In this document: piece after piece, positions 727 to 52,470 of the stretch
Layout: every line of letters begins with the position of its first letter
Numbering within the stretch: the stretch's first letter is position 1
Assembly: GCA_964019415.1 (NCBI GenBank)
Contig: OZ025869.1
Span: forward strand, 13,783,955 to 13,847,954
Direction: 5' to 3'
DNA: 64,000 nucleotides
Origin: Ianthella basta
Lineage: Eukaryota; Porifera; Demospongiae; Verongiida; Ianthellidae
Program-made: the position numbers and the translations under genes
The notes under the pieces: generated by a model
Told to the model about the DNA's origin: nothing
The model's input: only the letters and a program-made list of their open reading frames with translations
The model's database searches: none

Positions 727-18078
<17,352 letters not shown>

Positions 18079-19587: not shown

Positions 19588-20686
19588 TCATACGGGATCC
19601 CGGCACACATTTAATAAACAAGGAGTAGAACCTTTGCAGCACTTCTTCCTTCCACTGCAACGGCGGTCAGAGGAACAACCCTGGTGTGGACGACATGCGT
19701 ACCTCCAACGAAATATTGATATCGATGTGCCTTTTCGAACTGGAGGGCAGGACCCAGCTGTACGATTGGAAGCAAACACAGTAAATGAATAAGGTGGGGT
19801 ATATAGTATAGAGTTACATGTACAGTAAATAGCTGAATGTAAAGAAATTTTGCACGCTCTTACGTTTATTGGGTGGACACAAAAGGACAGGAACACATCT
19901 GTTACGCCTTGTGTCAATCACTTGTCCTCCAGGGCACTGGCACCCTGGTCTGCACCGAAGTGCACAAAACCTTCCAAGATTGTTACAGGTCTTTCTACAT
20001 GGACTGGCACAAGCAGAGTACACCTGGCCTTTCACTGAGCATCTCCCTGTTGGAAACAATCAGTCAAAAAAATGTATAAAGCTAAATCTGCAGCAGCAAT
20101 CTTAGCTTGTCACATAGTATAGTGCATTTTGACCAAACGATAACACTAAAGTTACGTACCAGTTACAGTACTGCGCATGCACTTCTGCTGACACTGGGAC
20201 AGGGTGTTGAAGTTGTTGCCGTTCCCACCACATCCTCCATATATGAACATTGTACACTGCTTGGTATTCAAGTTCTAGTAATACTGCTGGATGAATCTCC
20301 TGCACCTTCCACGTTCAGGCTGCAGGGAGCACACGTCTGAGAAGATGGGTAAGGCAGAAAGTAAAAGCAATGGGAACTAACACTTAATTACGTACCCGAA
20401 ATTTGTTAATATTATTCAATTTTCATTTAATGAGACTCAGGCATGGTGATAATACATTCTTGTGAACAGAGTATTATAAAGTGCACTGAGTCACACAGAT
20501 GCTATGAAAAATGTTGTATTTCATCTGTATTGTAATCATACCTTTATATAGCTAACTTACTTTAATTTGCTGCTTGCATTTTGGGCAAACTCTTGTCGTT
20601 CTTCTCCACACTCGATAACGCCAGCCATCACAGAGTGGAGGCAATGTGGCCAGAATGACCACAACTAGTAGCAGATCTTTCAACAT
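19588..20686 (-). pseudogene. Kunitz-TIL-WAP triple inhibitor, copy A (nonsense in Kunitz)
   Basis: Four-exon layout: signal exon from ATG at 20686 (MLKDLLLVVVILATLPPLCD), Kunitz 20160-20336, TIL 19864-20046, WAP 19588-19757. TIL (10 Cys, CSVKGQVYSACASPCRKTC) and WAP (8 Cys, GRKKCC) are intact. In the Kunitz exon the third tyrosine codon of the YYY run is TAG, where copies B, C, D and F have TAC, so translation would stop soon after the P1 arginine loop. The strong signal-exon donor GTAAGT would leave phase 0 while the next exon needs phase 1; only a weaker overlapping GTTAGC (exon end 20557) keeps frame. Both points suggest a decayed copy. A TATA-like stretch lies at about 20733-20752. Allelic variation or sequence error remains possible. 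Confidence 0.75.
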
Positions 20687-26237: not shown

Positions 26238-27575
26238 TCAGTGACGTCTACGCCATACAGGACGTTTGCAGTACTTTGAGAAACAACCTCGACTTATCAT
26301 TGAAGAGCAGCACTTATTTCTGCCACTGCACTGAGAGTCATCTGTACACGAATTGACTCGATGGCATGTCTTCCTAATGATGTATGACCATCGAATTGGA
26401 GGGCAGGACCCTGCTATACAAAAGATGGTAGAGTACAGGTTAATGGATGCAATATTATGTTGAGCCCAAGTAGGGCTAGAAAGAAGCACAATCAGGGAAT
26501 TATAACTTGTTCTTACATTTCGTCTTGGACGGACACAATTTGACAGGAACACATCTGTTGCGCCTTGTGTCAATCACTTGTCCTCCAGGCCATGTACACC
26601 CTGGTCTGCACACAGTTGTACAAGACACCCTTCCATGATTGTTACAGGTCTTTCTACATGGACTAGCACAAGTGGAGTACACCTAGCCTTTCACTGAGCA
26701 TCTTTCTGTTGGAAACAATCAGTCAAAACATATAAATCTAATTTTGCATAGCAACAATCTTAGCTTGTCACACAGTATAGTGCATATTGACCAAACAATC
26801 ACACTGAAGTTACTTACTAGTTACAGTAGTGCGCATACACTTCTGCTGGCACTGGGAAAGGGTGTTGAAGTTGTTACCATTCCCACCACATCCTCCATAT
26901 ACGAACATGTCACATTTCTTGCTTTTCAAGTTGTAGTAATACCGTGGAACATAAGCCCTGCACCTTCCACGTTCAGGCTGCAGGGAGCACACGTCTGAGA
27001 TAGGTAAGGCAGAGAGTGGAAGCAATGGAAACTAGTAATGCTTATATATCAAAATTTGTCGATGATTTATTCGATGCTTACATCATGTGATTCAGGCACT
27101 GTAATGATACATATTAAATTTACTGTAATAATAATTCAATCCTAAAGGTTCTGCAATGAAATAGCACTGCAGCTATTACTATGTAATGAAAATTTCAAAC
27201 TTCTTACACAGACAACCTGTACATAGCGAAAGTATCTTCCTTTGCTGTGCAATTAATGCCCAAAATAGCTTGACAATGTGAATCACAAGTTGTTACTAAT
27301 CATCACAGAGGCACTTTTACATTATCTTTTTTCCTCAAATACAAAAATGAAAGCTTTAGGATTGGAGCACTGTATAAACATAATATTGTGCACTGAATCG
27401 CACAGACGGTACATATAATTATATATAGAGAGAAAATTTGTTTCATCTGTTATAATGGTAATTACTGCTTTAACTCACTAGACCGTACTGGTCTTCTTGG
27501 TACATAACGCCAACTATCAGAAAGGTGAAGCAAGGTGGCCAGAATGACCACAACTAGTAGAAGGCCTTTCAACAT
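26238..27575 (-). pseudogene. Kunitz-TIL-WAP triple inhibitor, copy D (nonsense in TIL; Kunitz intact)
   Basis: Exons: 27479-27575 (signal MLKGLLLVVVILATLLHLSD), 26818-26994 (Kunitz), 26517-26705 (TIL), 26238-26413 (WAP), all joined in phase 1. The Kunitz domain is complete with Arg at P1 (GRCRAYVPRYYYN). Seven codons into the TIL exon, where other copies read GQVYS, the Gln codon is TAG (in CCTAGCC on the + strand). The rest of TIL and an eight-Cys WAP are intact downstream. Either this is a young pseudogene or it now makes only a 98-residue secreted single-Kunitz inhibitor. The intact splice sites and open frames after the stop argue that the change is recent. Confidence 0.75.
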
Positions 27576-29547
27576 CACTTAGCTCCGGCCCTGCTACTTA
27601 ATTGGGCTTCAAAAGTACTGTGTTTATATTATATTATGTAGCTGTTGGTGTATACCTTTCCTTCCTTCCTTCCTTCCTTCCTTCCTTCCTTCCAACTACC
27701 GCTGATGCGGTTACACGACCCCCAGTAATGGGGGGAACAAGTTATTGTCAAAATCTCACTGAACATTCTGGTACTCAGTTGTTATCTTGTCTGCATCTGT
27801 AGACAGCAAGTCCACATTTGTGCCTTTTCTTGTCCCCTTCTCGTCTAAAACCTCTATTGCATTCTTGGCGTACAGCATGGGATGATGTGCATAGCTGCTC
27901 TAGCTCCTTCCCATATACACCTTACTTGTACCTATATACTTCTTGTATACTGCTTGTATACTTCTTGTATACTTCTTGTATACCCTACATACAGTAAAAA
28001 TTACACACACTCACCCTAGGCCTACAATTGCTGTTATTACATCAGTTGATTATCCTGACATTGTGCTTTTAGTGTCTGTGACAACAATTTAATAACCCAT
28101 GTTAGGTCATCCATTGAGTGTCCCATTGCAAAGCTATTTTACATAGTTATAATTATAGTTTATACATTTCCATGCAATTAAGCTTGTACCCTGTATTATT
28201 GTTACTCCATGCACTAAATTGCATATTTTGGTATCTTGTGTGTAAATTCAATACTATTTGTGCAGTAATAAGATCCTGCCTACACTTCTATTATTGTATA
28301 ATTGTTATATTGCCAAATGGGCAGTATAATATACAATGGCAAAATATCATCTAAAAATATAGGAAGTAAGGCTGACCATGCATACAAATTATTCTACATA
28401 GTTATTACTGTGATCGGGAATAATGTATATATTTTATGCTGAGCTAACAACATGTACAGCTACCTTCAAGCAATTGTATTGTGAATTTACAGAGCAGTAT
28501 AATCATTAGCTATCATGCATAGAGTAAAAAATAATTTCTTCATTGATTTGGTGGTCTTATGCATGCAATTGGTCTCTGTGGTTCATTTGGTTTATAGAAC
28601 ATCACATCTTTATACAAGTAGCTGTGGGTAGTTACAAACAGTCATTTATATCAGTCATGATGATCATGAACTGGAACAAAATTACATACTGAATATGAAG
28701 ACAGACTTAAGACATAACTTCTGTAGCAATTCTCAGCCACCTCATTGCATCAAACGCCTTCAGTGACCAAACATCTAGGCAGCTATTGCTAATATATACA
28801 TTACAGCAGATTCTGCTGTTTATGTATACATGTACATGCATATATAGGAAACTACATATCATTATAATTATGTATACATAGTAGTTTCTATATGTAGAAT
28901 AATATTATGTATTGAAATAAACCGCGCAGACAGTAGGAACACTATTTCACAGATTTTCATGAATAGAGACCTGTGTACTGCTTTCTGAGTCAAAGTACAG
29001 AGGACAGCTAATTGCAGTCTGAAGAGCTCATGAATGGAGAGAGTGGCATACAGCTTTCCTACAAGTTCATACAATCCCACTGCTCGTTTTCCTGACATTG
29101 TGCTATTTATAGACACTGTGCCCTCGATGTATATAACACAATAGCCGGGGTCATTTATTCAGTTTCCCGTTACATAACAATGCTATGCAGATGCATTCAT
29201 TAGTGTGAATGTCAGCCAATTCAGTAAGCACGTGGCAGTGTGCAGATCACTGCATTTCAGATCACACACACACACACAGTCCATGTACTGTACACATTAC
29301 AGCTGTTCTGTCAGCTACTCCACAGATGGTTCATCAAACACATGATTCGTAGTAAAATGCAATGTTAATGTTTTACAAACTAAGCTTGTACAAAGCAGTA
29401 AGCACTCACTCAATTGCTATGTGTTCCTATGCAGGTATATAGCTATTTCCTGCGTATACACACTTACTTATACCAGCCCTTTTCATACACACACACACAA
29501 GTAAATTCCTAAGCTGGTCTGGTAAGAAGTTAATCTTATACACACCA
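27576..29547. other. Intergenic DNA upstream of copy D
   Basis: Holds a (CTTC)n run at 27656-27692, tandem TATACTTCTTG units at about 27937-27982, the duplicated flank at 28006-28130, and copies of CCTGACATTGTGCTATT near 28052 and 29090. A WW-rich TTTATATT (27623-27630) is the likely core promoter of copy D. No further gene is seen. Confidence 0.55.
28006..28130. repeat. Duplicated upstream flank, unit 3
   Basis: Third copy of the CACTCACCCTAGGCCT block, upstream of copy D, again ending in GGTCATCCATTGAGTGTCCC. Confidence 0.85.
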
Positions 29548-29762
29548 TCACTTTGCTGTCCATGGCTTTGGCTGTCTGTTTGGTACAGGATTCAGGCAGA
29601 GCTTTGAAGAAGAATGAACACTACAGCATTTCTTTGTGCCAATACACTGGGCATCTTTGTGACAATGCCTGTGCAGGTGATGCCTCCACTGCGGCTTAAC
29701 CCGCCTTCTCCATCGTCCCCTCGATGATGAGCTGTACCTTCGAACTGGAGGACAGAATCCAC
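29548..29762 (-). other. Terminal WAP exon lacking Cys2 and Cys7
   Basis: Aligned with the WAP domains of copies A, B, C, D and F, the second Cys is His (QWRH where copy C has QWRC) and the seventh is Ser. The other six remain. Between Cys1 and the next Cys is a basic run (RGRWRRRVKPQWRHHLHRH). The tail after the domain ends NRQPKPWTAK. Confidence 0.8.
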
Positions 29763-32700
29763 CTATACGGGTATATTGAAATGAGCATAGATGATTATTG
29801 AACATATGATGGGGCAGGGTATTAAGAAGAATTCATTTTACAAGTTAAGCTCTTACGTTTGGGAGGACACTGCCATTTGGGTACACATTTGTTGTGCCTT
29901 GCATCTATGACTTGTCCCGTAGGGCAGCAACACCCAGGCCTGCACTTAGCCATACACTTGAAATTTCGGTTGTCACATGTGTCCTTGCAAGGTTTGGCAC
30001 AAGCGGAGAATATCTGACCTTTCACTGGGCACCTTCGAATTCCTAGGATGAAAGCCAGTAAAATTAAACTTAAAACAAAACTTATACATTCCAATACAAC
30101 AAACACCTTTTCACTATAGTTTTATGCAGTATAATATCGTTTCATTGTACAGTACTGTGTACAGCATATCAACTCAGTACACTATACCATTCCAAGCCAA
30201 CTTACTGTGCATGCACTTTCGTTGACACTGTGACAAGGTGCTGAAAGTGTAGCGAAGGCTGCCACATCCGTGCAGTATGATCCTTTTACACTGCTTGCTC
30301 CTCCTGCTGCAATAATAGCGTGGCAAGTAACTCTTGCAGTGTCCACCTCCAGGCGGCTTGGTGAGCTTGTCTGAAGAGATATACACAATGCAAGCAATTA
30401 AAGTATATATTATTGTGTAAAGGTTGCATAAACTCTTTATGGGACTAGCCCTATAGTTAGGACAAAATAGTGTAGGTGGAATCTTGAATACAGTGAAGCC
30501 TGTCTAAAACAGCCACCTGCGGGCCAGTTCTAACTGACTCTGGCTACTCTATATACAGAGGTGGATTGCAACGATTTAGTGCTATTTGTGTCCAGGGGAT
30601 GCTGGCTGGTTCAGAGAGGTAGCTGCCTAATACAGGGACCATTTAAACAGGTTCCAGTGTATTTGTACACTATACCATTCCAAGCCACCATACTGTGCAT
30701 GCACTTCCGTTGGCAGTGTGACAGAGTGCTGAAGGTGTAGCGATGACCAACACATCCATGCAATAGGATCTTTTTACACTGCTTGCTCCTCCTGCTGCAG
30801 TAATAACGTGGCAAGTAACTCTTGCAGTGCCCACCTCCAGGCAGCTTGGTGAGCTTGTCTGAACAGAAACACACAATGCAAGCAAGGTACGTTACAGTGC
30901 ATATAGGTTGCATGAGCTCTATGTAGGACTACCCCTATAGTTAGGACAAGTGAAACATAGTGTATATAAGTTGAACCCTGAATACAGTGAATGAAACCTG
31001 TCTAAAACAGACACCTGTGGGCCAGTTCAAACTGACGCTAGCTACTCTAAAGAGGTATGCAGATTGCAATGTTTTAGTGCTATTTGGGTCTGGGGAAGCT
31101 GGCTGTTTTAGAGAGGTGGATGCCAAATAAAGCGACCCTATTAGACAGGTTTCAGTGTATTTGGAATAGCATAAAATCTCAACGCAGCTTGCATGCACTT
31201 TACCTGGCCCATAACGCCAATGATAACCAACCAATTTGTTTTGTATACTGAAACTTACTTTCACAACTAGCCCCACTGTATCCCTTAGCACAGTGACATG
31301 TACAGGACCTTGAGTTAAGTCTCCCTCCATTATGACATCTCAGTGGACAGGCTACACAATAGCCAAGAAAGAGTAGAAGTTAAGACCAAAGACACGCTGT
31401 TGTGCTGTCAATGTAGCTGATAGTGACATATTCTTCCAGAACGTGTGGTAAATACAGTAAAACAATAACTATCCCAGTACAGTAGAATTCTAATGAGAAG
31501 GTCTATGCATGATTTGCACCACACAGATAATGTACTCACTTTCACAGTTAGACCCAGTGAAGCCACCTGCACACGTACAGCTACAGGAGGCTGAATTCAG
31601 TGTCCCTCCATTTTGACACTTTCGACTACAAGCTGAAATACAAGTATGAAGAGTGACGTATGAATGGGTCACTAATTTTGAATGACATTTTACAGTGCAC
31701 ATGTTAGCTAAAACTTTGTATATAAAGTATTGCTTGCAATCATTCTATATCCCATTTATATAGTATGGTGATTGCGCAACTATAGAGATTTAAGAATTAG
31801 CAGGTGGTCCTATATATGTGATATAGACCTGAAAAGAGGTCTGATATCACAATATCAGGGCTCTGATTGCGCAAGAGGTCTGATATCAAGAAGGAATATA
31901 ATGAAACCAGAGCCAAATGTGTGTACTGTCAGGCGAAGCAGCCTTACCATTTCACTGTGGCCGTGACAATCAGTGCTGCAAAGGATCTTGACGCTCCAAG
32001 AAAAACGCGACCGCTAAAAAACGTCGCACGAAGGTAAGTCGGTTAGACAAGATACCAATACATGCGTAAAGGGACGTATTCTAGGAACCGAGCACTGAGT
32101 CCGGCTCTGTTGCGCGAAACTGTGGCGTGGAAGATGCGCAGACACGGTCCGTTGAGCGACTTCTTCGATGACGAAAACAAAGTCCAGCTGGATATGGTCG
32201 AAAGCTGTCAAAAAGTGATTAAAATTGCCCTCTCTAGTTCCGAGTCCGCAGCGAAGTCGGTGTTCTGCCAGAAAAGAAGCGTTTTCAAGACTCTCCGTGC
32301 AGCACCCAGTCACGGCCACAACAAAAACTGCTGACTGTGCATTATTTTGAATTCGGTTCCCTGTAATCTCATTGGTCAGCGTGCTGCCGAAAGGCGCGCA
32401 GTATTCTCATTGGTCAGCCCTGAAGCCTGTTGTGACGTCACGGAAGCGTCTCTTGAATGCAACGGTGCCGTAGCCCGTTCCCGGAAGGAGCAATGACGTA
32501 ATGCATTCGCTTATCGAATACAAATGGCGTCGTCTCCGGAGAGGTCTGGCCTCGATATTGCTGAGAAGGTTCTTCCTGTTGCGCACTCACCATACTATAT
32601 AAGACATATAGTACGGTAGGTCGGTCTATAGCCTCTATATAGGACCTCGGCGCTCATATTTACCTCGGCGCTTCGCGCCTCGGTAAATATGTAAGCGCCT

Positions 32701-35700
32701 CGGTCCTATATATCGGCTATAGACCTCCCTACCGTACTATATGTATTACGTATACCACCCTCACCACACACATATTCAACTTCTATTCTGGCAAACGAAC
32801 CACTTGCAGATAATACAGCTGAAAGTAATGAACAGTTTGTAACTAGCGAAAATGTTGCTCACTTCCACAACTAGCCCCAATGTAGCCCTTGGCACAGTCA
32901 CATGTACAGGAACTTGTGTTAAGTCTCCCTCTATTCCGACATCTCAGTGAACAGCCTACATAACAGCAAAGTAAGAAAGGAAATAGAGACTATAGGGACA
33001 CACTGTTGTGCTGTCCAGTTAGCATACACAATCTATATTCAATGATACATGTGCGGAATAATAAACCCACGTATACAGTGTCCCAGGCAGTACATTAGAG
33101 TGCTATATACTAGTAAACATCCATGATCTACTCCTATGATGTTAATGTACTCACTTTCACAGTTAGACCCTGTGAAACCCCCTGCACAGGAACACCTACA
33201 GGCGGCTGAATTCAGTGTCCCTCCATTCTGACACTTCCGACTACAAGCTGAAACATTAGAAAGGAAGAGTGTTGGTAGAATGAGTCACTTAGGATGTTAA
33301 GGAAGGAATATTGTTTAGCATTGCTCGCGTTCACTCAGCACCCCCCCCCCCCCCCCCCCACAGACTGTACACATAGAGCCACATGCAACATATAATACAT
33401 ATATACATACATACATACATACATACATACACATATTCAACTTCTGTTCTGACAAGTGAACCATTTGTAGATGATACAGTTAAAAGTAAGCTGGGCAGTT
33501 CGTAACTGGTGAATTTGTTACTCACTTCCACAATTAGACCCACTGTAGCCAGCAGCACAGCCACATGTACAGGAACGTGCCTTGAGTCTCCCTCCATTCT
33601 GACATCTCAGTCGGCAGGCTATTCATAGCATGGCATCAGCACAGGAAATAAAGGTGTGATTACTATAACATAAAGAATGCTTTGCTTTTTTCAAACTAGC
33701 TGACATTCCACTGACTCCAGAATGTGCAGTTCAAAACAATGGTACACTAATGGAGGATGTCCGTGATTGATACCTGCACCACACACAGTGCACTCACTTT
33801 CACAGGTAGTCCCAGTGAATCCACCTGCACAGGAGCACCTACAGGAGACTGAGCTCAGTGTCCCTCCATTCTGACACTTCCGACTACAAGCTGTAATCAT
33901 ATATAGAAGGAAAATGCAAGTCCACTGTGGCCAATGTACATTCTGCATCACGTGCTCTGCACCACACAACCATTCAAGGTAGTTACTAAAGGTTTGACTA
34001 CAGGAAAACAAAGAATGACTTGTCCGCAATCCTGATGATGGACTAATTTGTAATTCACTTTCACAACTAGCTCCACTGTAGCCATCAGCACAGTCACATG
34101 TACAGGAACTTTTGTTGAGTCTTCCTCCATTCTGACAACTCCGCGAACAGGCTAGAGAATTCAAGGAAGAAATAAGACAATAGCTATACCACTATGTCAA
34201 TTAAGAGTTTTACAGACACCATTTAACAGACAAACCACAAGGTTCACGTACATAACTCCATAACCATCCCATCACACAATAGACATGTAATCCAGCTGGA
34301 GCATGCATGCCTCAATCACACGCAATGCACTCACTTTCACAGTTGGATCCACTGAAACCACCTGCACAGGAACACCTACAGGAAGCTGAATTCAGTGTCC
34401 CTCCATTCTGACACTTCCGACTACAAGCTGAAATAGGGGCAGAATGGAAAGAGAGATGCCAACTTATGTAGCTATAATTGTAAAGGCAAGCCAGCAATTA
34501 GACATCATGCATAAACCATGCTTCTAACAGCCACACATTCATGGTATACCTTCATTGTGGCTATTACATAGTCTAAATAGTGGGCTGTAGCCATGGTGAC
34601 TGTCCTTTCACAACTTACTTCCACAGGTACTCCCACTGTGGCCATCAGCACAGTTACATGTACAAGAACTGGTGTTGAGTGTCCCTCCATTCTGGCATTT
34701 CAGACCACAAGCTACATAGAAGCAAAATAGGAAGCAATACAAATGACAACTTAGGCCAAGCTATAATTGATGTTGATGGAAGATAACTACAGACTACACG
34801 TAACTATTCTGTACAGTCCATTACAAATAAAACTACCAAAGAAAATCCGTGACCTGCACCACTTAGATAATGTACTCACTTTCACAGTTAGTCCCATTGA
34901 ATCCACCTGCACAGGTACAGCTACAAGAGGCTGAGTTCAGTGTCCCTCCATTTTGACACTTCCGAATACAACCTGAAATTATGGAGGAAAATGCAAGAGG
35001 ATATAGCAGTAGTCTACCTGTAACATACAGTATCTGAGTTTCTTGCTGCTAAAGTGTTACAAAAATTAGCAACAAAGACAGTTGATAAGCAAATCAGTAT
35101 TACTGTACGTATAATATTGTTATGGCCAATGAACATCATACATAATTACGACACTTACACAATACTATACAATGAAGTAACACATGTATACACATGTACA
35201 CCCATTCAAGCTCCTACAAGTCTGAATACAAGCTAACACAGAACAAGGAAGACATTTGAAGGTCAGTTTCTCAAGACACGACAAATTACATGTAACTCAC
35301 TTCCACAGCTTGCCCCACTGTGGCCATCAGCACAGTCACATGTACAGGAAGTTGTGTTGAGTGTCCCACCATTCTGACATCTCAGAGAACAGGCTAAAGA
35401 GGACCAAAAGTGAGCAGAGAATTGAGACAATAATTTTACAGGCATGCCCCCGTGTGCATAGATGTAGAGTCTCAATATGCACCATGTCACAGTAGACATG
35501 AAACAGAATGTTTGTGTCCTTAATTACATACACCCAATGCACTCACTTTCACATTTGGATCCACTGAAACCACCCACACAAGTACACCGACAGGATGTGA
35601 AATTGAGGGTCCCTCCATTCTCACACTTCCGACTACAAACTGAAATAGAGTACAAAAGTAAGTGCCATTTACTTGGATTACAGGAAGAACCATCTTACAG

Positions 35701-38700
35701 TAGCAACTATGCATGTAGCAACCTTGCACAACCTTGTACTGTCTTGAAGCACAACCTTGCATGTAATTCAATTCTTGATACAACAGATTTAGCAACCACA
35801 AATAGGCGAATGAGATGATCTCTTAAGGGTATAAGGCATATAGTTGACAGGCTACAAATATATATACGTATTATTATTCTTACACCATGCACATGCAGTC
35901 CTATTCTAACGTCTACACATCTGGAGTACCTCAAAGTGACTAGTCTAACTACAGATTGATGCGCTGTGAAAGAAACTGGGCTGTAACAGTGAAAATTATA
36001 CTTTTTTGGCTTACATCCACAGGTCTTCCCACTGTAGCCATCAGCACAGTCACATGTACAGGAACTTGTATCAACTGTCCCTCCATTCTGACATTTCAGT
36101 GGGCAGGCTATATTAAAGAGAAAACAATGTCGTGTTGACAATATTTTTTGACAATTATCTGATTCAAGGATGTACTCACTTTCACAGTTAGTCCCCGTGA
36201 AGCCACCTGCACAGGTACAGCTACATGAGACTGAGTTCAGTGTCCCTCCATTCTGACACTTCCGACTACAAGCTGTAATGGCAGAGGGAATATGCAAGTA
36301 GGATACTGTAGCAGCTATCAACCTTCATTACAGGGGTGTAAACTAGAGAGCCATGGCAGGTACATACGTATAGCGAAGAGTGTCCAACATATAGTGATGC
36401 ACATTTAAGGTATACCTCATATATATATACTGTATACAAGTTTGAACAGGCTGACATGCACAAAGAAAGGAAAATTTAACCATGATCAGCTTGTCACTGA
36501 TCCTGATGATGGACAAATTTGTTACTCACTTTCACAACTAGCCCCACTGTAGCCATCAGCACAGTCACATGTACAGGAACCTGTGTTGAGTGTCCCTCCA
36601 TTCTGACAACTCCGTGAACAGGCTTGAAGATTCACACAAGCACCAAGGAAATGAGACAATATCCATATCACTGTGTCAAGAAGCCTAGAACTGTTCATGC
36701 GCCACAATAATAGATGTAGAACAGAACGTGCATGCTTTAGATCACACACAATGCACTCACCTTCACAGTTGGATCCACTGAAACCACCCGCACAGGTACA
36801 ATTACAAGAAGCTGAATTCAGTGTCCCTCCATTCTGACACTGTCGATTACAAGCTGAAGTAGAAGATGAATGCAATGGGTTAATAAAAGTATGACTAACT
36901 CCATATTAGTCTCTCCAGTTATGCAGATAGCACACAAAGGGATGGATAAGTTGCTATCCAATGTATAATCCTGCTCCAACATCTACACATTCAGGGTCCA
37001 CCATTATGATTATAGTCTATCTGCAGACTGATGCAGGGTGAAGGAAAATGTGGTGTAATACCGAGGATTGTCCATTTTACAGCTTACTTTCACAGGTATT
37101 CCCACTGTAGCCATCAGCACAGTCACATGTACAGGAACTTGTGTTGAGTGTCCCTCCATTCTGACACTTCAGTGGGCAGGCTTAGCAATAGCAAGAGTGG
37201 AGGAAAGAAAGAATTATTGTTTGAAGACTACAGGCAAAACCTTGTGGCAACATGTATATGATTTAGTGATGTGCACTAGCTGCAATCTGTAACTGATCCG
37301 CACCACAAACCCACAATGTACTCACTTTCACAGTTAGACCCTGCGAAGCCACTTGCACAGGTACAGCTACAGGAGACTGAGTTCAGTGTCCCTCCATTCT
37401 GACACTTCCGACTACAAGCTGTATTATTACAGAAAGAATTGGTCAATGAGCACATATGCCACCGCAACACATTCCCATTCAAGCTAGTTCCTACAAGTCT
37501 GAATACAGTTGCTGCTATATATGCATAAATAATTATAGCAAAATGAGGTCAGCTTGTCGGTGATCCTGAATACTGCCCTACCATTTGCAACTCACCTCCA
37601 CAAGTACTCCCACTGTAGCCATCAGCACAGTCACATGTACAGGAACTTGTATCGAGTGTCCCTCCATTCTGACATCTCAGAGGACAGGCTATATTAAAAA
37701 GGAAGAAATCATGGGAGAATACAGGCACACTATGCACTGTTCTAGACTGCATCTAGAAACTATGGTCTCAAAGTGCACTGCAGGGTATAACTGTCCATCT
37801 GGCCATCGCAATTGACATGTAGCCATACAGAAGATCCAAGCCCTCAATCGCACCCAATGCACTCACTTGCACAATTGGATCCACTGAAACCACCCGGACA
37901 AGTACACTGGCAGGATGTGGAATTGAGCGTCCCTCCATTCTCACACATCCGAATACAAGCTGAAAGAGCAGAAGAATGCAAAGAAGTGCTCTACCCAAAT
38001 TACTAGGATTGTGCTGTATATAGTGATACACAGATTAGTAGGCAAAATTTGAGGCAAATATTAAATTCAGAGTTCCTAACTTCAGTGTAGCTCCAGTCTG
38101 ACAATTATGTCTCACTGCAGGCTGACACAAGTGGCTAGAAATGACAGTCTACAGCTCCGATTACTGTCCAGTCCACAACTTACTTTCACAGGTTTTCCCA
38201 CTGTAGCCATCAGCACAGTTACATGTACAGGAACTTGTGTTGAGTGTCCCTCCATTCTGACATCTCAGTGGACAGGCTACACAAATATTGCAGCATATGA
38301 AGGAAGCAAAGAAATGAGGACTAAAGACACTATGCAGTTGCTGCTTTAACAATCTAGCTGACATTCAAAGCATTCTTCAAGGATATGCACTACTATCAAA
38401 GACTTCATCCCGAGTTTAGCTATAGGAATTTCCTAGAGAAGGTCCATGATCTTCATCACACACTATGCACTCACTTTCACAATTATTCCCAGTGAAGCCA
38501 CCTGCGCAGGAACACATACAGGAGACTGAATTCAGTGTCCCTCCATTCTGACACTTTCGACTACAAGCTGAAATTAGAATGCAAAGAGACAACAGCAGCA
38601 GTTCAACTGCAGCACTAGCTAAGATCTTACTGCATGCAAAGCATACGCAGGTATAGCTTAGCAAACATGGACAAGCATGTCAATGATGTAGACATTCCCC

Positions 38701-41700
38701 CTGAGCATCTTACATTAACACAACACCCTGGCATTTGAGGAGATGGACAGAGTGGGCTGTTTGACCCCATGATGATTGTCCATTTTGCAACTTACTTCCA
38801 CAGGTACTCCCACTGTAGCCAGCAGCACAGTCACATGTACAGGAACTTGTGTTGAGTGTCCCTCCATTCTGACATCTCAGTGGGCAGGCTATATATAAGA
38901 ATAAGATGGAAAGGGTGAAGACCAAGGACAAACTTCAGTGCTCGCTCGCACTCTAGTAGACATACAACTAATACATGAACAAGGATTAATGTGCACCATG
39001 AACTGTCACAATCACATGCATCAAATTAGAAAACTAATGGTGAATGTCTGTGATCCGCTCTCCCTCCCCCTCCCCCCCCATGCGATACAAAGCACCATTG
39101 CATGCACTCACTTTCACAGTTGGACCCACTGAAGCCACCTGCACACGTACAGCTACAGGAGACTGAATTCAGTGTCCCTCCATTTTGACACTTACGGCTA
39201 CAATCTGAAATAGAGGGAAGGGGAGGGCATATAGGAGTGTTCTACTGCAAATGAGTCATTAAGACGGTGTATCTGCATAGAATTACAAATAGCTCCCACG
39301 TCAAGGAGGAAATTACATTTGGTGCCCATTGCTAATGTCCCATTGTATGTAACACAAAGAATTCAAAAATTCAGCATCCATACATTCTGACAATTGGACT
39401 GTGACCTTGCATGACAATTACCTTAGCAATTTGTAACTCACTTCCACAAGTTTTCCCACTGTAGCCATCAGCACAGTCACATGTACAAGAACTGGTGTTG
39501 AGTGTCCCTCCATTCTGACATTTCAGAGGACAACCTAGATGAAGCAAATAAGCAAGACAAAGAGATGACAACATTGCCATAATGACAACTGTAGCTATAG
39601 ATTTTATTCAACTATTGTTCTCTACATAGCTTCTGCATACAGTAAGTATACTACATGCACTAACTGTCCTATGGTACTAGTATATTAGTGGCATGGATTG
39701 GCCGGATGCAAGAGACCTAAGTCTCTTTGGCCAGCATTAATACATGCAAAGAGATGAGTGATTGACAACCCCTAGCTTGGTGCACCTATACCTTTGCAGT
39801 GATTCATAAATACATAATATCAAACTCAGAACGTGTATCTTGTACACCTCACATAATGCACTCACTTTCACAGTTAGGCCCACTGAAACCTCCTGCACAG
39901 GTACACTTGCAATTTCCTGCACTCAGCATCCCCCCATTCTCACACTTCCGGCTACATGCTGCAGTAGTCGAAGAAAGATTGAACAACAAGTCACATGTAA
40001 GCTAGCACTCTAGATCTATCTGCCAGAGGTATGTACTAGGGTCATGTCTCCAACTAATGTGATGCGCACATTATGATACATTTACTGGAAGGACAGTGAA
40101 GTCTGTATAGGTTATAAAGACATTTTACACGGTTATTACTATTGTAGTATACATCCCATTTCAACATACCAACACATTCAGCTTCCTGATGTGACAAGTT
40201 AGACTACACGTACACATGTACATTATACCCAATACATTATTTGTACAAAAGGGCCAGTTATATGGCTAGTTATCTGTGCACCTGATGACTGCCAAATTTT
40301 CAACTTACTTCCACAACTAAACCCACTGTAGCCATCAGCACAGTCACATGTACAGGAACTTGTGTTGAGTGTCCCTCCATTCTGGCATTTCAGAAAACAG
40401 GCTACATAAGAAATATGACCACGTAAGCTGTTGATTTTGCAAGTTTAGAGGGATATTCAAACTTCACTACATGATTAACTGATTGATCCATCACAGTAAA
40501 CGGCCACTGTGGGCCTTCCATGCACGATCAGCACCATGGCCTTAAGCAATGCCCTCGAATGCCCTCACTTTCACAGTTTGGCCCACTGAAACCTCTTCTG
40601 CAGGTACACTTGCAAATTTCTTTATTCAGTGTCCCTCCATTCTCACACTTCCGACTACAAGCTGTAGTAGAAGTGGAAAGAGGAATGAGGTATAAGTACT
40701 CTAGCATGCTGATCAAGTCCATTGCAGCTGGGTCCTGTTTAATTTGTGTGACCTGTGTGTAATTCATACGTTAATTCAAAGGTTGACAAGCAAGCTAGTC
40801 CCATTTGGAGCCCACTACTCTCCTCACACATACACAATCAGCTTCCATGTATTCTGACAAGTTTGACCATAGATGTAATGATTCAGACAATATCAAATTA
40901 AGGACCGGAGTTTGTCTGCACCCCACATTCCATTTAATACCTCACTCCGGCCCACCCCTCCAAACACATTTTAGGTTGCCATGTATTCTGATAAGTTTGA
41001 CTACAAGTAAATAATTCAGTGGAAAGCAAAGTGGGAAAATATCTGGCCATTTTGCATAATATTTTCATTAATCTAACTTACTTCCACAGGACTTCCCACT
41101 GTAGCCATCAGCACAGTCACATGTACAGGAGGATGTGTTGAGTGTCCCTCCATTCTGACATCTCAGAGAACAGGCTATAAAATTTATTACGGTAAATAAC
41201 AACCACGCTTTGATTTGTCATAACTTATCAGTTCCATCACATAAAACAGTTAATTAATACAGACCATCTGTGATCTGCAGCATGGCCTTAAGAATTGCTC
41301 ACTTTCACAATTAGACCCGCTGAAACCTCCTGTGCAGGTACACTTGCAATTCAGTGTATTCAGTGCCCCTCCATTCTCACACCTCCGACTACAAGCTATA
41401 GTAGAAGAGGAAAGAGGAAGGAACCTTTCAGGGCTCTACCGGAGTCACCTGCAGCTGGCTGTTGTTTGCATTACATTCAGTGGTTCACAAGCTAACCAAC
41501 AAATAGGAACGATGTAAAATTAGATCACTAACAGGCATTGTCTGTGAGCATCCTTCCGTGTACATATCCCACTGTTTACCCCCCACCCATACTGTACACA
41601 TTCAGCTTCAATTGTGACAAATTTTAAATTGACAACATTGGGTTAGGCTACAGAGCAAGGCAAATTGGGGATTCTAACTGTGATCCCAATAACTGGTCCA

Positions 41701-44700
41701 TTTGTGTAATTTTATGCAACTCACTTCCACATGTATTCCCACTGTAGCCATCAGCACAGTGACATGTACAGGAATTTGTGTTGAGTGTCCCTCCATTCTG
41801 ACATCTCAGTGGGCAGCCTAAATAAAAGGACACACTGTCGTGGTGACAATCGGGCATTCAGCTCATTCAGGGATGTGTGCCAGTGAACTACGTATAAGCA
41901 ATCCAGTCTATTTGAGATCTATAGAATTAAGTTATAGGTCTGCACCACACATGTACTCACTTTCACAGTTAGTCCCATTGAAGCCACCTGCACAGGAACA
42001 GCTACAGTATACTGAATTCAGTGTCCCTCCATTCTGACACTTCCGAACACAAGCTGAATTCATAGAGGGAAAATGCAAGTAGGATACTGTAGCAGCTGTC
42101 CACCTTCATTACAAGGGTGTGAACTAGAGAGCCATGACAGGTATGTACAGTGAAGAGTGTCCTACATATGGTGATGCACATGTAAGGTACTACATATGGT
42201 GATGCACATGTAAGGTACTACATATGGTGATGAACAATCACTATATGTACTGTACACAAGTTTTGAATATAGGCTGACACAGGGAAAGGAAAAGGTGACG
42301 ATGACCAGCTTTCTGTGATCATGATGATAGACAGATTTGTAACTCACTTTCACAACTAGCCCCACTGTATCCATTGGCACAGTCACATGTACAGGAACTT
42401 GTGTTGAGTCTCCCTCCATTCTGACATCTCAGGGGACAGCCTAAATGTGGTAAAATATAACCATGCAATCTGTTGATTTAGCAAGTTTAGAGGGATACTC
42501 AAAGTTCACTACATGATTAACTGATCCATCACTTCATAATTAAACGGCCACTGTAGACTTTTCATGTATTATCCACTGCCTTACACAATGCACTCACTTT
42601 CACAGTTTGGCCCTCTGAAACCTCCAGTGCAGGTACACTTGCAATTCAGTGTATTCAGTGCCCCTCCATTCACACACTTCCGACTACAAGCTATAGTAGA
42701 AGAGGAAAGAGGAAAGATGCTTTATTGCATAATATGTTGTACCTGAGTAACCTGCATGCAACGTGTTCTTGTCTGTACAGTGATTCTCAGGTTAAAAACA
42801 GATAATATAGGGAGCTATATAGGATATGGTCAATGAGTCTCCTACATCCCATTAATAACCCACTCCTCCCATGCACCAATTCAGTGTCCCTCCATTCTGA
42901 CACTTGACTATGAGCTGAAATTTTGGAGGGATAATGCAAATAGGATACTGTAGCAGCTGTCCACCTGCATTACAGGGGTGTGAACTAGAGAGCCATGACA
43001 GGTATGTACAGTGAAGAGAGTCCTACATATGGGGATGAACATTCACTACAGTGGAACCCCATTAAACAATCACCTCTATAAAACGACCACCTTAGAAATA
43101 AGACCGCTTTGGTTTAGTCCCAAATGCATGTGCACATGTAGATTATGTTCTCAGAATTAAGACCACCTCGAAAATAAGACCACTTTGCTTAGCCCAGATG
43201 GTGGTCTTATTTCTGAGGTTCCACTGTATATGTATACAAGTTAGAATATAGGCTGACACAGGGAAAGGAAAAGTAACAATGACCAGTTTGTCTGTGATCC
43301 TGATGACAGAGAGATATGTAACTCACTTCCACAACTAGCTCCACTGTAGCCATCAGCGCAGTCACATGTACAGGAACTTGTGTTGAGTGTCCCTCCATTC
43401 TGACATCTCAGACGACAGGCTTAATAAATAAAATTAAGGAAGCACAAATGAAGGTTAAGGTATACTAGTGCTGTTGAGTCATGTAATCGACATTTAAGAG
43501 TAGTTCAAAATTCACCATATTGTATTACATAGCATATAAAGAAGATTATGGCCTTTGATTCCAGAAAATAATCTAGTATTACAAAATAAGTTTCAGCAAC
43601 TATTATATTATTCTAGACAAGCATACCGAACCATTCAGTTGTACACATAAGTGCATGTATGCTCCAAACATATATCTACTGTGCACTCACTTTCACAGCT
43701 GTCTCCTTGGAAGCCACCTGCACAGTTACAATTACAGGAGCTTGCATTCAGTGTCCCTCCATTCTGGCAGGTCCGACTACAAGCTGACAATGTGGAGGAG
43801 AATGGAAAGCAGTGCCTAGCTGCTTACTTCCAGTGACTAGAAAGGTACATGCACACCTAGTGGACTCAAATAATACTTAGACCAAATGTACATTTTCCCT
43901 CTCAATACAGTCGATTTCAGAATCAAAAGTACTATATAGTCCCACTAAAGTCATCTGCAATAGTCATGTGCGTGTGCAAGTTCCTGTATTTAGAGTCCCC
44001 ACGTACCACCTGATGGAATGCATGAAAAACTGTGGATGACCAATGGCAAACCACATTAGTCCAAGACGCAGGCAACTTATAGGCTAACCATTTCTCTTTC
44101 TCCCCTTTGGATTTCAAGCTGACAGTAACCTACCAAACCTTTCACACTCTTGCTTTAGAGGAATGGTATCGATGGCATGTTCAGCAATGCATGCATGGAC
44201 CCAAATGAAACATTGCATGACTGAGCTCCAGTGCAAACTCTAGGATTCAGCACACAATGCCATGCATTCTACTGGCCATGGACCTACCCATAGAATATGC
44301 ATACAATCAACACCTTGAGAATACTCTATAATCTACTCAACAGGGTTTCATATACTCACTTTCACAACTAGCCCCACTGTAGCTCTTAGTGCAGTCACAT
44401 GTACAGGAGCTTGTACTGAGCGTCCCACCATTCTGACATCTCAGTGGACAGGCTAAGCAAAATGACACACTGTCATGCTAACAATCTGACATTCAACTGA
44501 TTCAAGGATGTGAGCTATATGGAGAACTATAACTAACCCAGTCTATTTGAGATCTATAGAATTAGTATGTAAGCATGTAGGTCCAAGGTCTCTGCCACAC
44601 ACACACGCAATGTACTCACTTTCACAGTTAGACCCGGTGAATCCACCTGCACAGGTACAGCTACAAGAGGCTGAATTCAGTGTCCCTCCATTCTGACACT

Positions 44701-47700
44701 TCCGAACACAAGCTGAATTTATAGAGGAAAATGCAAGAGGATACTGTAGCAGCTGTCCACCTGCATTACAGTGGTGTGAACTAGAGAGCCATGGCAGGTT
44801 CATGTATAGTGAAGAGAGTCCAACATATAGTGATGCACATTTATGGTACCTCCAATAATTATAGAAAAAAGATAGATTACAGGGTGACACAGAGAAGGAA
44901 AAGACGAGATGACCAACTTGTTGCTGATCATGATGATAGACAGATTTGTAACATACTTTCACAACTTGCCCCACTGTAGCCATCAGCACAGTCACATGTA
45001 CAGGAACTTGTGTTGAGTCTTCCTCCATTCTGACATTTCAGTGGGCAGGCTATATAATTTATTAAGGTAAACAATAACCACACTTAATTTGACTTGCTAT
45101 AACATATACTTATCTGTTCCATCATGTTTAACATAGAACATCTGTGATCTGCAGCATGGCTTTAAGCATTGCTTACTTTCACAATTAGACCCGCTGAAAC
45201 CTCCTGTGCAGGTACACTTGCAATTCTCTGTATTCAGTGTCCCTCCATTCTCACACTTCCGACTACAAGCTATAGTAGAAGAGGAAGAGGAAGAGGAACT
45301 TTCAGGGCTCTACCAGAGTCGCCAGCAGCTGGCTGTAATTAGTATTACGTACAGTGGTTCACAGGCTAACCAACAAATAGGGAGGATAATTAAATCATTA
45401 ACAGGCATTGTCTGTGAGCATCCTTCTGTGTACATATCCCACTGCTTATAATTACTGTTCACCCACCCCACCCCCACCCCCCCACACACATATATTATAC
45501 AGCTTCCATTTTGTCAATTTTAACAAGTGAACATAGAAAAAGCAAATTGGGGATTTTAACTGTCATCCTGACAACTGGCCCATTTGTGCAATTTTTTTTG
45601 CAACTTACTTCCACATGTACTCCCACTGTAGCCATCAGCACAGTGACATGTACAGGGACTTGCACTGAGTGTCCCTCCATTTTCACACCTCCGACTACAA
45701 GCTGTAGTAGAATAGTAGAAAGAGGATGGAACCTTTCAGGGCTCCACCAGTCACCAGCAGCTGGCTGTTGTTTGTATTACATACAGTCGTTCACAGGCTA
45801 ACCAACAAATAGGGAGGATAATTACATCACTAACAGGCATGGTCAGTGAGCATGCATCCATCTACGTATGTACATTCCATTGTTCACTCCTCACCCACTC
45901 CACCCATACACACACATATTCAGTTTCCATTGTGACAAATTTGACAACATATAGAAATGTTACAGAACATGCATGGCAAATTAGGGAATATATCAGATTG
46001 ATTCTGTGATCCCGACAACTGGCCAATTTTGTGTAATTTCATTTAACTCACTTTCACAACTAGTCCCACTGTAGCCATCAGCACAGTCACATGTACAGGA
46101 ACCTGTGTTGAGTGTCCCTCCATTCTGACATCTCAGTGGACAAGCTTAACAAAAGGACACACTGTCGTGTTGACAATCTAACATTCAACTGATTCAAGGA
46201 TGTGAGCTATATAGAGAACTATAACTAACCCAGTCTATTTGAGATCTATAGAATTAAGTACGTGCGTAGGACAGGTCCACGATCTGCATGTGCCACACAC
46301 ACAATGTACTCACCTTCACAGTTAGCCCCCGTGAAACCACCTGCGCAGATACAGCTACAGGAGACTGAGTTCAGTGTCCCTCCATTTTGACACTTACGGC
46401 TACAAGCTGAAATTATAGAGGGAAAATGCAAGAGCTGTCCACCTGCATCACAGGTGTGTGAACTAGAGAGCCATGACAGGTATGTACAGTGAAGAGCGTC
46501 CTACATAAATTATGGTGAACAGATGCACACCCATTCAAGATACCCCCTATATGTATATATGCAAGTTTGTATTCAGGCTGACACAGAGAAGGGAAAGATG
46601 ACGATGACCAGCTTGTCACTTATTCTGATGATGGACAAATTTGTTACTCACTTTCACAACTAGCCCCACTGTAGCCATCAGCACAGTAACATGTACAGGA
46701 ACTTGTATTGAATGCCCCTCCATTCTGACATTTCAGAGAACAGGCTGAAGAAGAGGAAAGAGCGAAACCCAATTTGGACACACAAATGCTGAATGATTGA
46801 ATAGGAATTGGTCTGAATGGTAGGCTCAATAGATTGTTATATACAATTGCACATTGTGTTAAGGTGCTTGCTTGTACAACACATGCTTGTATAGGTTTGT
46901 GTGGTCTGGTGTAAGGGACCTCTCATGCTCCATGCATGCATGCACTTGACATTCAAACAAATGCATGGACTTCCACTCATGCCTTTACAGGCAGTTTAAT
47001 GGTTGTAAACAAACAACTTCACTCACAGTGTGTCATAATAATATAACTGTGGGATGTGGTAACAAGTAAAGATGTACACAAACACTGACAGCAGTCAGCA
47101 AGTGTTAATGGCACAGACAAATATTGTGGTAAATATTTACACTAATGGAAGTGTTAAGTTACATGACCGAAGGAAGAGATGACTACACACTGAATACAGT
47201 GGCTGGATGGGGGGGGGGGGGGGATAAGACAGATTGAAAATAACCAGTTTGAATGGAAGACTGCACATGCATGGATGGAACATGTATCTGTATAGGGTTT
47301 TAATGATAGCTTTACGACGAGTATACGTACATACGTGCACATGTGCAGATGACTAGGTGTAACATAGACTGTACGTAAAACTACGTATACATGCAGGTAA
47401 TGATATCTGTAGAACTATGTGTAACTTGATAGCTTTGTGTCTGAAACCTGATAGCTCAGTAACTGTAGGTGGTAGCCATGTGTTAACCAAGTGTTTAGTA
47501 CTAACAGTTTGGGGCCCTGCACTGCCACCTTATAGCCTTTGTTCTTTGTTTGTACCACTACTGTATTGTGGAGTTGCTGAATGATGCTGAAACAGTGACA
47601 AGTGTACGTATAATGCTTGACCGTCACCTCCACCGAGAGACGTACGCTACATATGTGTGAGGTAGTGTGCCTCATCAGGGATATTAATATACACTACCCT

Positions 47701-48510
47701 ATATTGTATGTTAAGTTGTGTCTTTAGCCTGGCTATATATAGCAGAAATACAGCTACACTGAATGGTAATGCATAAGGGGTCGCTTGCCTGTGAGCAAAC
47801 AAGAAGACTAAAAAGGACATCATCATGGACACTATAACTCTGCACACTGACACTGCATGGCCCTATATATGTTTAGATATAGCTCACTATTGCATGTTGC
47901 TCCACCCCAGTTTCCATTACATGCACATGAGAAGGTAGACGGACCAGTACGATTGCAAGTGCCACCATTAGCACATGGGGCTGCAGCACAGGGGTCATTC
48001 ACTGCATGGGAGGAAGGAGATGAGAAAGGGTAACAACGCCACAGTGCACGATCACCCTACTCGCTCCCTCAAGCAAAACGTACGTTTGCAGTAAGTTGGA
48101 GATGTCTTGCTGTCCTGGCAGTTTTGGCAACCCTCTCTGGTCATGTTCTCGGTAAAGTGTTTGCCTTCTTTGACGGAGGTAACGTCTGCTTCGGAGAATC
48201 TGAACGCGTTGAAAAGACACACGGAGAAGGTGACCTGCGCAGACTGGTTCGTCGCAGTGTCGTAGGAGTACAACACGGATATTCGCACTTGATCATATCG
48301 TTTGCTATTGGTGGTAGAGCGGACGAAACAGAGATAGGTGCGGTCCTGCACGCTGAACTTGGACTGATCGGTTTCCCGTAAAATTCCAGCTAGATTCAGC
48401 GCTGATAGCAGTTGTGAATCGGGCACGTCTAGGGTACATTGAGCATAGCAGAAAGGGAACGAGAGTTCGAAGAGAAGGAGAAACAAGGTGAGCAGGACAC
48501 GCGCCCCCAT
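29548..48510 (-). CDS. Giant secreted EGF-repeat protein with Kunitz, Kunitz, TIL and WAP C-terminus
   Basis: Proposed single gene, about 1,787 residues. Exon order: 48084-48510 (signal MGARVLLTLFLLLF, then an unrecognised domain of about 120 residues with six Cys), 47888-48001 (canonical EGF, CANGGTC...CACNGNWGG), 44 EGF-like exons between 46744 and 31259, Kunitz-like 30694-30858 and 30206-30370, TIL 29857-30042, WAP 29548-29762 (TGA at 29548). Every one of the 50 exons has consensus GT-AG ends, and all internal ones are phase 1-1, so any order stays in frame. No signal exon lies between the EGF array and the Kunitz exons, unlike in the neighbouring small genes. That is why I join them. An alternative start five codons upstream (48525) exists. 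No membrane segment is seen, so it is predicted to be extracellular. Splitting into two genes cannot be excluded without a transcript. Confidence 0.72.
29857..30042 (-). other. TIL exon of the giant gene
   Basis: A trypsin-inhibitor-like domain (RRCPVKGQIFSAC...CVPKWQC) with the ten standard Cys plus one more, because the usual GCQC is GCCC. It is phase 1-1, 62 codons, and clearly homologous to the TIL exons of the small inhibitor genes. Confidence 0.85.
30206..30858 (-). other. Two Kunitz-like exons with relocated cysteine
   Basis: Exons 30206-30370 and 30694-30858 are 165 bp each and very similar, so they are a recent pair. Both keep Lys at the P1 position (GHCKSYLPRYY) and five of the six Kunitz Cys. 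Both have lost Cys1 (DKLTK replaces DVCSLQ) and gained a Cys where other copies have the third Tyr of YYY. The FVYGGCGGN motif is degraded (ILHGCGSLRY, LLHGCVGHRY). The intron between them carries a CAGTG-ended MITE. Confidence 0.8.
30491..30659. mobile_element. MITE in the intron between the two Kunitz-like exons
   Basis: CAGTGAAGCCTGTCTAAAAC at the left is mirrored by TTTAAACAGGTTCCAGTG at the right. The interior (CAGCCACCTGCGGGCCAG) matches the CAGTGGAACC family. No coding capacity. Confidence 0.65.
30984..31157. mobile_element. Second related MITE near the Kunitz-like exons
   Basis: Left end CAGTGAATGAAACCTGTC, right end TTAGACAGGTTTCAGTG, with an interior similar to the element at 30491. 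The two probably spread by the local duplication that doubled the Kunitz exon. Confidence 0.6.
31760..32770. mobile_element. Insertion with inverted-repeat segments inside an EGF intron
   Basis: The intron between EGF exons 43 and 42 is far longer than its neighbours. It contains repeated AGAGGTCTGATATCA phrases (about 31833-31888) and a GC-richer middle with an open frame at 32062-32334 (ENKVQLDMVESCQKVIK) that I do not recognise. There is also a palindrome at about 32590-32752 (CTATATAGGACCTCGGCGCT mirrored by AGCGCCTCGGTCCTATATAT). Borders are approximate. Confidence 0.55.
42877..42917 (-). pseudogene. Truncated relic of a type B EGF exon
   Basis: AATTCAGTGTCCCTCCATTC followed by TGACACTTGACTATGAGCTG matches the 5' half of a type B exon (on the - strand) with small deletions. 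The other half is missing. It lies in the intron between exons at 43327 and 42598. Confidence 0.75.
43049..43226. mobile_element. MITE with CAGTGGAACCCC ends in an EGF intron
   Basis: CAGTGGAACCCCATTAAACA at the left is mirrored by TTTCTGAGGTTCCACTG at the right, with TA beside both ends. The interior has paired AAGACCACC and GGTGGTCTTATTTCTGAGG phrases. Confidence 0.75.
45609..45701 (-). other. Chimeric type B / type A EGF exon
   Basis: The N-terminal half is type B (CSRRCENGGTLSASP) and the C-terminal half is type A (CTCHCADGYSGSTCG). The upstream intron matches that beside B exon 45177 (GGCTAACCAACAAATAGGGA). The downstream intron matches that beside A exon 41725 (GCAAATTGGGGATT). The recombinant exon is still exactly 93 bp. 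Confidence 0.85.
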
Positions 48511-51170: not shown

Positions 51171-51312
51171 CCCGGGAAGAGTTTGAAATGATTGTTGCTG
51201 ATCTCAATGGATAGCTTCACCTTTGAAACCTTAGTGAAAATTTCATGAACACTATTTGTCCGATGACCAATCCACCAGTGAATTGTGCAAAGAGATTGAG
51301 CCTCCTTAAGTA

Positions 51313-52470
51313 TATACTGGGTTGAACACATTAGTAGAATGGTGTAATGAATGGTCAGTTGAAGTGAATGTGGAAAAATGCGGGGTAATGCATGTGAGAA
51401 GGACAGGTATGAAAAGGACGGAGGAGAAGTTTGATGTTGGAGGTGAAGAGATTGCAGTGGTGCAGGAGTACAAGTATCTTGGGTGTGTGATTGATGAGCA
51501 CCTGCAAGGTACGAGAATGGTGGAGGAGAGAGGAAAGGCGGGAGCAAGAGCACTAAGTGACTGGCTCAGAAGGTGCAGGGCCACTGTGGGGGAAGTGAGA
51601 GGAGCTACCTTTGTGAGGCTGATGGAATCTCTCGTTGAGTCTGTGCTATTGTATGGGGCAGAGGTATGGGGTTGTGGAGCACAACTCGGGCCAGTTGAAA
51701 ATGTGCAGATGCGGGCGGCAAGAATCTTTTTAGGGGTGGGGAGACTACACCCTTTGGTCTCCCTGCAATTTGAGATGAACATGCTACCAATGAAATGGGT
51801 GGCAATGAAGAGAAGTATTGAGTTCTGGGTACAGGTAATGAGGATGACTGATGGCAGGTTATTGAAAGTTGTGATGCTTGAAGCCTTGGAAGTAGGGTGT
51901 AAAGTACGGTGGGTGAAAGAGCTACAACAAAGTTTGGTGAGGTTCAAATGGAAGGGGTTAGATGCTGAGGCCGTGAGTGGGTTGACATTGAAAGAAGTAA
52001 AGCAGGTGTTGAAGGACATAGCATGGAGGGAAGTGAGAGAAGTATGGAGGGAAGCAGCTAGGGAACGGCCAAAGCTGGAAGTGATTGGGAGTTTAATGGA
52101 TGCTGAATGCAAGGCGCGGTGTGTGGAGATAGAGTGTAAGATGCAAAGGAGGATGATGGTGAAACTACGAGGGGGAACAGCAGAATTAAGGGTAGAAACT
52201 GGCAGATGGTGTGGGTTAAGTAGGGGCGAACGACTTTGTAAGAACTGTGACAGTGGTGAAGTGGAAGATGTCAAGCACTTTGTGTGCCGGTGTGTATTTG
52301 TGGCAGAAGAGAGGAGAGAAATGGCAAGGCTGATGAATGAGATAGTGGTGGGATGGGAGAGCATGAAGGATGATGACAGGGTGATATGGGTACTGGAGGA
52401 GGCATGCAAAGATGGAAGAGTGCGGAAGGCGCTGCAGAGGATGTGGCAGAAAAGGACAAGCTGCCCTTAA
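51313..52470 (+). mobile_element. 5'-truncated LINE: C-terminal part of a reverse transcriptase ORF
   Basis: About 385 residues open to a stop at 52470, entered from a non-coding left flank (stop at 51307), so the 5' end was lost at insertion. Visible landmarks: LVEWCNEWSVEVNVEKCGVM (RT palm/thumb region), YKYLGCVIDE, VESVLLYGAEVWGCGA, and a terminal zinc-binding cluster (LCKNCDSGEVEDVKHFVCRC). These are standard for the end of non-LTR RT proteins. The catalytic YADD box and the endonuclease are absent, so it is dead. The frame is still fully open over more than 1.1 kb, implying a recent insertion. The clade is uncertain. Confidence 0.88.

Follow-up and report, generated by a model that had tools for sequence, protein, structure and literature searches.

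A predicted sponge gene in which a receptor-type EGF array adjoins a Kunitz-Kunitz-TIL-WAP inhibitor tail

New animal proteins are known to arise through phase-1 module shuffling, which needs phase-1 introns flanking the modules that are joined (PMC3927616). Insect matrix inhibitors of the lacunin-like, papilin-like and Dumpy-like types mix inhibitor domains with other modules, including EGF (PMC3278429), and sponges have adhesion G protein-coupled receptors (GPCRs) carrying HRM and EGF domains (PMC4302439). Here, we describe a locus of the sponge Ianthella basta, lying in a 64,000-nt stretch of contig OZ025869.1 (positions 13,783,955 to 13,847,954; hereafter, the window), in which a predicted gene carries an N-terminal domain (NTD), a long array of EGF-type modules and a Kunitz-Kunitz-TIL-WAP tail. 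The insect matrix inhibitors have other domain orders, with no long EGF run into Kunitz-Kunitz-TIL-WAP in the portions of PMC3278429 drawn on here. The likeness to the sponge adhesion GPCRs, as far as the part of PMC4302439 used here describes them, is an HRM exon downstream of one related NTD-EGF locus of the same genome, whereas the window gene itself has no HRM match among the matches listed and no membrane segment was found in it. The order of an EGF array followed by Kunitz-Kunitz-TIL-WAP was not found in print by a narrow open-access search, which included parts of PMC4302439, PMC12549020, PMC3927616 and PMC3278429.

The locus is best explained as one transcribed gene in which a copy of a receptor-type NTD-EGF-array gene is joined to an adjacent Kunitz-TIL-WAP inhibitor gene, and we regard this explanation as likely. 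All positions below are in window numbering, and the whole gene lies on the minus strand. Genome-wide comparisons were made in the 209-Mb assembly, whose contigs are labelled C1, C2 and so on in this report; the window lies on C2.

Gene model and EGF-type array

The reconstructed gene runs from 48510 to 29548 and consists of 50 exons, with GT-AG borders at all 49 introns and phase 1 at all 49 junctions. The coding sequence of 5,364 bp, with its sole stop codon at the end, specifies a product of 1,787 residues and about 185 kDa with 306 cysteines. The first-pass annotation of this DNA had described 50 consensus-spliced exons, in phase 1-1 throughout, running from a signal peptide to one stop codon, and the reconstruction bears this out; it had also called the gene giant, which suits the large number of exons and is generous for a product of 185 kDa. 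The domain order is signal peptide and NTD, canonical EGF, 44 EGF-type modules of 93 bp and Kunitz-Kunitz-TIL-WAP. Exon 1 (48084-48510), placed by the gene model and an alignment of paralogues, codes for the signal peptide and the NTD. Exon 2 (47888-48001; 114 bp, phase 1-1) codes for the canonical EGF, which scores 24.8 bits in Pfam against a cut-off of 21.5.

Exons 3 to 46 (31259-46744), found by a profile scan, are EGF-type modules of exactly 93 bp each in phase 1-1. Their first bases on the minus strand are 46744, 46406, 46144, 45701, 45269, 45049, 44712, 44452, 43783, 43419 and 42690 (exons 3-13), 42440, 42053, 41817, 41395, 41174, 40661, 40401, 39958, 39534, 39204 and 38888 (exons 14-24), 38567, 38276, 37959, 37688, 37418, 37180, 36853, 36622, 36272, 36107 and 35639 (exons 25-35), and 35393, 34972, 34711, 34427, 34151, 33890, 33618, 33247, 32955, 31632 and 31351 (exons 36-46). 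A scan for the phase-1 exon pattern gave 41 EGF-type exons, and a profile built from those 41 raised the number to 44. The weakest accepted module scores 52.6 bits, and the next best stretch of the window, at 16.7 bits, is a dead EGF exon fragment in intron 12 (42905-42879, minus strand). With the canonical EGF (48001-47888), the count of 45 EGF-type modules claimed earlier is thus recovered. The one 93-bp module tested lies below every Pfam cut-off, with a best score of 15.9 bits, and the best PDB match of a two-module query is Notch-1 (E 1.6e-6). The modules fall into types A (n = 21) and B (n = 23), which alternate with a single fault, at 45701. The median ratio of non-synonymous to synonymous rates (dN/dS), with pairs kept only if dS lies between 0.05 and 3, is 0.26 among the A pairs (208 of 210 kept) and 0.50 among the B pairs (247 of 253). 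Intron 44 contains an insertion-like element (31756-32748) whose inverted repeats measure 60 nt and 25 nt.

Inhibitor tail and the local inhibitor cluster

The tail begins with exon 47 (30694-30858), which codes for Kunitz 1, followed by exon 48 (30206-30370), which codes for Kunitz 2 and is a tandem duplicate of exon 47 together with part of the preceding intron. Exon 49 (29857-30042) codes for the TIL domain, and exon 50 (29548-29762) for the WAP domain and the stop codon. The two Kunitz domains score 38.6 and 37.3 bits (cut-off 21), TIL 38.0 (24.5) and WAP 26.4 (20.8), and the cysteines were read from alignments. Both Kunitz copies pass the PF00014 cut-off without the set of six canonical cysteines: the first one is absent, an extra cysteine appears in RYYC, and LHGC stands in place of YGGC. 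The P1 position, as aligned to BPTI, retains lysine. In TIL (PF01826), all ten cysteines align and one is extra, giving 11 versus 10 in the five neighbours aligned. WAP (PF00095) retains six of the eight cysteines while passing the score cut-off, and exactly the second and the seventh are missing. These two are disulfide partners in known WAP folds.

Kunitz exons lie on the same strand on both sides of the window gene. In the neighbouring inhibitor genes, a signal exon is followed by Kunitz (one exon or two), TIL and WAP. Of the four downstream genes, all but g20 give a continuous frame with identical phases when their exons are joined; g20 does not with the borders chosen. Identity between the tail and its neighbours is 35-45% for Kunitz, 55-60% for TIL and 35-47% for WAP, and the alignments group each of these domains with the neighbours, in agreement with the earlier claim that the tail is homologous to the small inhibitor genes on both sides. 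The cluster genes share with the tail their domain order and exon borders; they differ in having a signal exon and full sets of cysteines, whereas the tail lacks the former and is altered in the latter. Two of the four downstream genes have an in-frame TAG (26521-26718 and 20176-20334, minus strand), one in a TIL exon and the other in a Kunitz exon.

Between exons 47 and 48 there are 19 differences over 165 sites, 12 synonymous and 7 non-synonymous, with 20% synonymous expected (binomial p 6e-5), and the NG86 method gives a dN of 0.056 and a dS of 0.50. By these figures, and by the joint loss of two WAP cysteines that are disulfide partners, the inhibitor tail looks to be under constraint. Since the duplicated unit lies within introns 46 to 48, the duplication could have preceded or followed the fusion, and therefore constraint between the two Kunitz exons is by itself no proof that the fusion is expressed.

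NTD-EGF-array relatives and their 3' ends

Beyond the window, full or near-full copies of the NTD are present at 11 loci, and a fragment at one more, distributed over C1, C8, C11, C15 and C18, and the window copy is the sole one found on C2. It is 36-63% identical to 10 aligned paralogues, the eleventh locus (C1 11.36 Mb), where the NTD is split over two matches in two frames, being omitted from the alignment. Cysteines are conserved between the window copy and the paralogues. None of the 11 aligned members has a Pfam match at E 1, and a sequence match to the PDB at E 1 was likewise not found. Ten of the 11 other loci, all except C18 4.068 Mb, have a canonical EGF resembling that of the window gene after the NTD. 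Modules of the 93-bp EGF type are present in the DNA fetched around six of the 11 loci, namely C18 4.020 Mb (7 modules), 4.029 Mb (27) and 4.076 Mb (3), C11 3.20 Mb (14), C15 2.86 Mb (4) and C1 11.36 Mb (2), and none was seen in the DNA fetched at the remaining five. The window gene shows both features of the family, an NTD exon followed by a canonical EGF and alternating 93-bp modules in phase 1-1. What the relatives on C18, C15, C11, C8 and C1 have in common with it is the NTD, the paired EGF, the 93-bp modules and phase 1-1; what sets them apart is the length of their arrays, with up to 27 modules ahead of an anchor versus 44 in the window gene, and their ends, which, where found, are not inhibitor domains but a membrane-anchor exon at seven loci and an HRM exon at an eighth.

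Seven of the 11 other NTD loci have in their vicinity, on their own strand, a strongly hydrophobic open reading frame that leads into basic residues, at 2,899,662 and 2,868,793 on C15 and at 3,943,667, 4,028,155, 4,053,998, 4,071,768 and 4,084,060 on C18. A further such stretch, at 4,064,937 on C18, comes after a second array of 20 modules where no NTD was found. Under a strict criterion (hydrophobicity of at least 3, three basic residues after it, and CVCV repeats dropped), a scan of 15 loci gave seven rows on the gene strand, which the overlap of two loci reduces to six places; the antisense strand of the same 148,512 bases gave none. This tally excludes C18 4,053,998 and 3,943,667. Chance hydrophobicity as the source of the relatives' anchors was rejected on this comparison. 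Downstream of the NTD locus at C1 11.36 Mb there is an HRM exon (32.3 bits), with no hydrophobic stretch after it in the 13 kb scanned and no 7tm_2 among the matches listed. Elsewhere, window-type EGF modules immediately precede HRM and 7tm_2 matches on C18 and C13, and the matches listed include numerous 7tm_2 and HRM matches at C12 4.78-5.04 Mb, C8 1.77-3.49 Mb, C10 and C18 1.66-2.12 Mb.

No anchor exon was found for the window gene in a scan for unsplit anchors along the minus strand from 49000 to 10000. Nine hits were considered as a missed anchor and rejected: seven at or below 17.3 kb are CV repeats or a stretch rich in methionine and valine, and the other two are read-throughs of the introns ahead of an EGF exon and the TIL exon. 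By the presence of a downstream anchor or HRM exon, the window gene thus falls outside the membrane-anchored branch of the family. All 45 Kunitz matches in the list fall on C2, C14 or C18 5.79-5.80 Mb, away from every other NTD locus; among the NTD genes found, that of the window alone has inhibitor genes around it.

The join and its competing explanations

The array meets the inhibitor tail at intron 46 (30859-31258; 400 bp), retention of which would add 19 residues before a stop codon. Its last 305 bp match the intron ahead of Kunitz 2 at 77%, the two belonging to a tandem duplication (unit 31163-30665 versus 30665-30177). A short dispersed repeat on the minus strand occurs here (31159-31083), in intron 47 (30661-30592), at 18485-18415 and in several copies at about 6719-6222. 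With the signal exons of three neighbours as queries, intron 46 contains no neighbour-like signal exon beyond what shuffled sequence gives. An 11-base match, TTGGCGTTATG, at 31220 and 27513 was considered as a relic of such an exon and dismissed, since its alignment score is equalled or exceeded in 92 of 500 shuffles and surpassed by two other introns. The first-pass annotation had stated that no signal exon precedes the tail and had proposed that the captured gene had lost its first exon. The former is right as to a spliced exon like those of the neighbours, but an ATG at 30913 does read into Kunitz 1; the latter agrees with intron 46 having no detected signal exon or neighbour-like promoter, but no relic is demonstrable. 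Downstream, the first sense AATAAA or ATTAAA after the last EGF exon lies beyond the WAP stop codon (29154-29159, minus strand), and the sense strand from 39600 to 29170, a stretch picked after the data had been seen, contains neither, a count matched by 2 of 200 shuffles.

Several observations speak against a single joined gene derived from an anchored relative. The ATG at 30913 is in frame into Kunitz 1 and opens a weak signal-like start, with a hydrophobicity of 2.32 over 12 residues, although it may be a chance occurrence. Intron 46 shows no similarity to the 5' flanks of the neighbours beyond shuffled sequence, but this comparison is weak, since one of the four neighbours (g23) is also unlike the other three (scores 14-17). 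From the last EGF exon to 29170 alone, the absence of a polyadenylation signal is not unusual (33 of 200 shuffles), and the whole gene contains 9 AATAAA or ATTAAA versus 9.4 expected. The anchor exons of the relatives appear to belong to the NTD loci by virtue of strand and proximity, the scan of the window would overlook an anchor split by an intron, and the locus at C1 11.36 Mb, with its split NTD and no hydrophobic open reading frame, is not established as a full receptor. The loci at C11 3.20, C8 2.01 and C1 11.26 Mb gave weak or no candidates for an end, and therefore other anchorless members may exist.

The ATG at 30913 would also be the start of the tail if the locus comprised two genes, the inhibitor gene beginning within intron 46 and running unspliced into Kunitz 1 (MQPICTVTYLACIVCFCS-DKLTK...), and the EGF gene ending elsewhere or by intron retention. 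The weak signal peptide that it opens and a TATATAC at 30968, 55 bp upstream, are consistent with such a start. However, read-through ATGs are common, being present at 14 of the 49 acceptors, one other of which reaches a hydrophobicity of 2.22, and three neighbours have spliced signal peptides with higher scores (2.89-3.42), in a scan that overlooked the fourth neighbour (20686) and produced a spurious hit (22717, score 2.59). Moreover, the equivalent ATG in the duplicate ahead of Kunitz 2 (30429) is out of frame, the weak promoter comparison offers no likeness to the neighbours, and the EGF array would be left without an identified end. We therefore consider two genes unlikely. Less probable again is one locus with two products, the EGF promoter driving the complete fusion and the internal start yielding a short inhibitor: both starts are open, but the internal signal peptide is weak. 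The in-frame TAG codons of two downstream inhibitor genes and the dead EGF fragment at 42905 could indicate that the locus is decayed or misassembled and that its tail or array is not expressed, but the window contains no N, all 50 exons are open with correct borders, and the two Kunitz exons appear constrained, so that this explanation has very little probability.

A single joined gene therefore remains the best reading, and the earlier proposal, in which an EGF-array gene acquired its 3' end by capture of an inhibitor gene, is partly borne out, its single transcript across the join being predicted from the exon structure. Since the relatives mostly lie near anchors and the window copy alone lies among inhibitor genes with no anchor found, it is probably a gene of receptor type that joined its inhibitor neighbour through phase-1 introns. 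A copy of such a gene would have come to adjoin a gene of the inhibitor cluster and, the phase-1 exons of both being compatible, the array would have been spliced onto Kunitz-Kunitz-TIL-WAP. The product would be a secreted rod that begins with the NTD and terminates in a diverged inhibitor head. Such a protein would be a soluble version of its membrane relatives and might act as a decoy or as a tether taking the inhibitor head to the ligand of the NTD and EGF array. The P1 lysine points to trypsin-like targets, if the head inhibits at all; since one Kunitz cysteine is lost and the loop is changed, loss of inhibition is as likely. The fullest version, in which a receptor gene moved into the inhibitor cluster and exchanged its anchor for an inhibitor gene, giving a secreted targeted inhibitor or decoy with remodelled Kunitz and WAP disulfides, is put forward only tentatively.

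The window contains other features. Collagen triple-helix reading frames lie on the minus strand at 2531-3229 and 9198-9881 (118 and 86 bits). On the plus strand, an open reading frame of 386 residues (51310-52467) has a reverse-transcriptase match below the cut-off and is perhaps a piece of a retroelement, and another of 247 residues (60535-61275), rich in alanine and glycine in its middle, has no Pfam match over the cut-off.

Phase-1 introns flank the joined modules at 49 of the 49 junctions, as class 1-1 shuffling has it, and the locus looks like a neat instance of ordinary phase-1 shuffling, not a system of a new kind, its origin following the textbook route. In the captured WAP domain, a presumed disulfide pair would have been lost together. 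If the joined gene is real, a receptor family would have yielded a secreted member through exchange of its 3' end, with both source families persisting in one genome, the relatives on other contigs and the inhibitors as direct neighbours.

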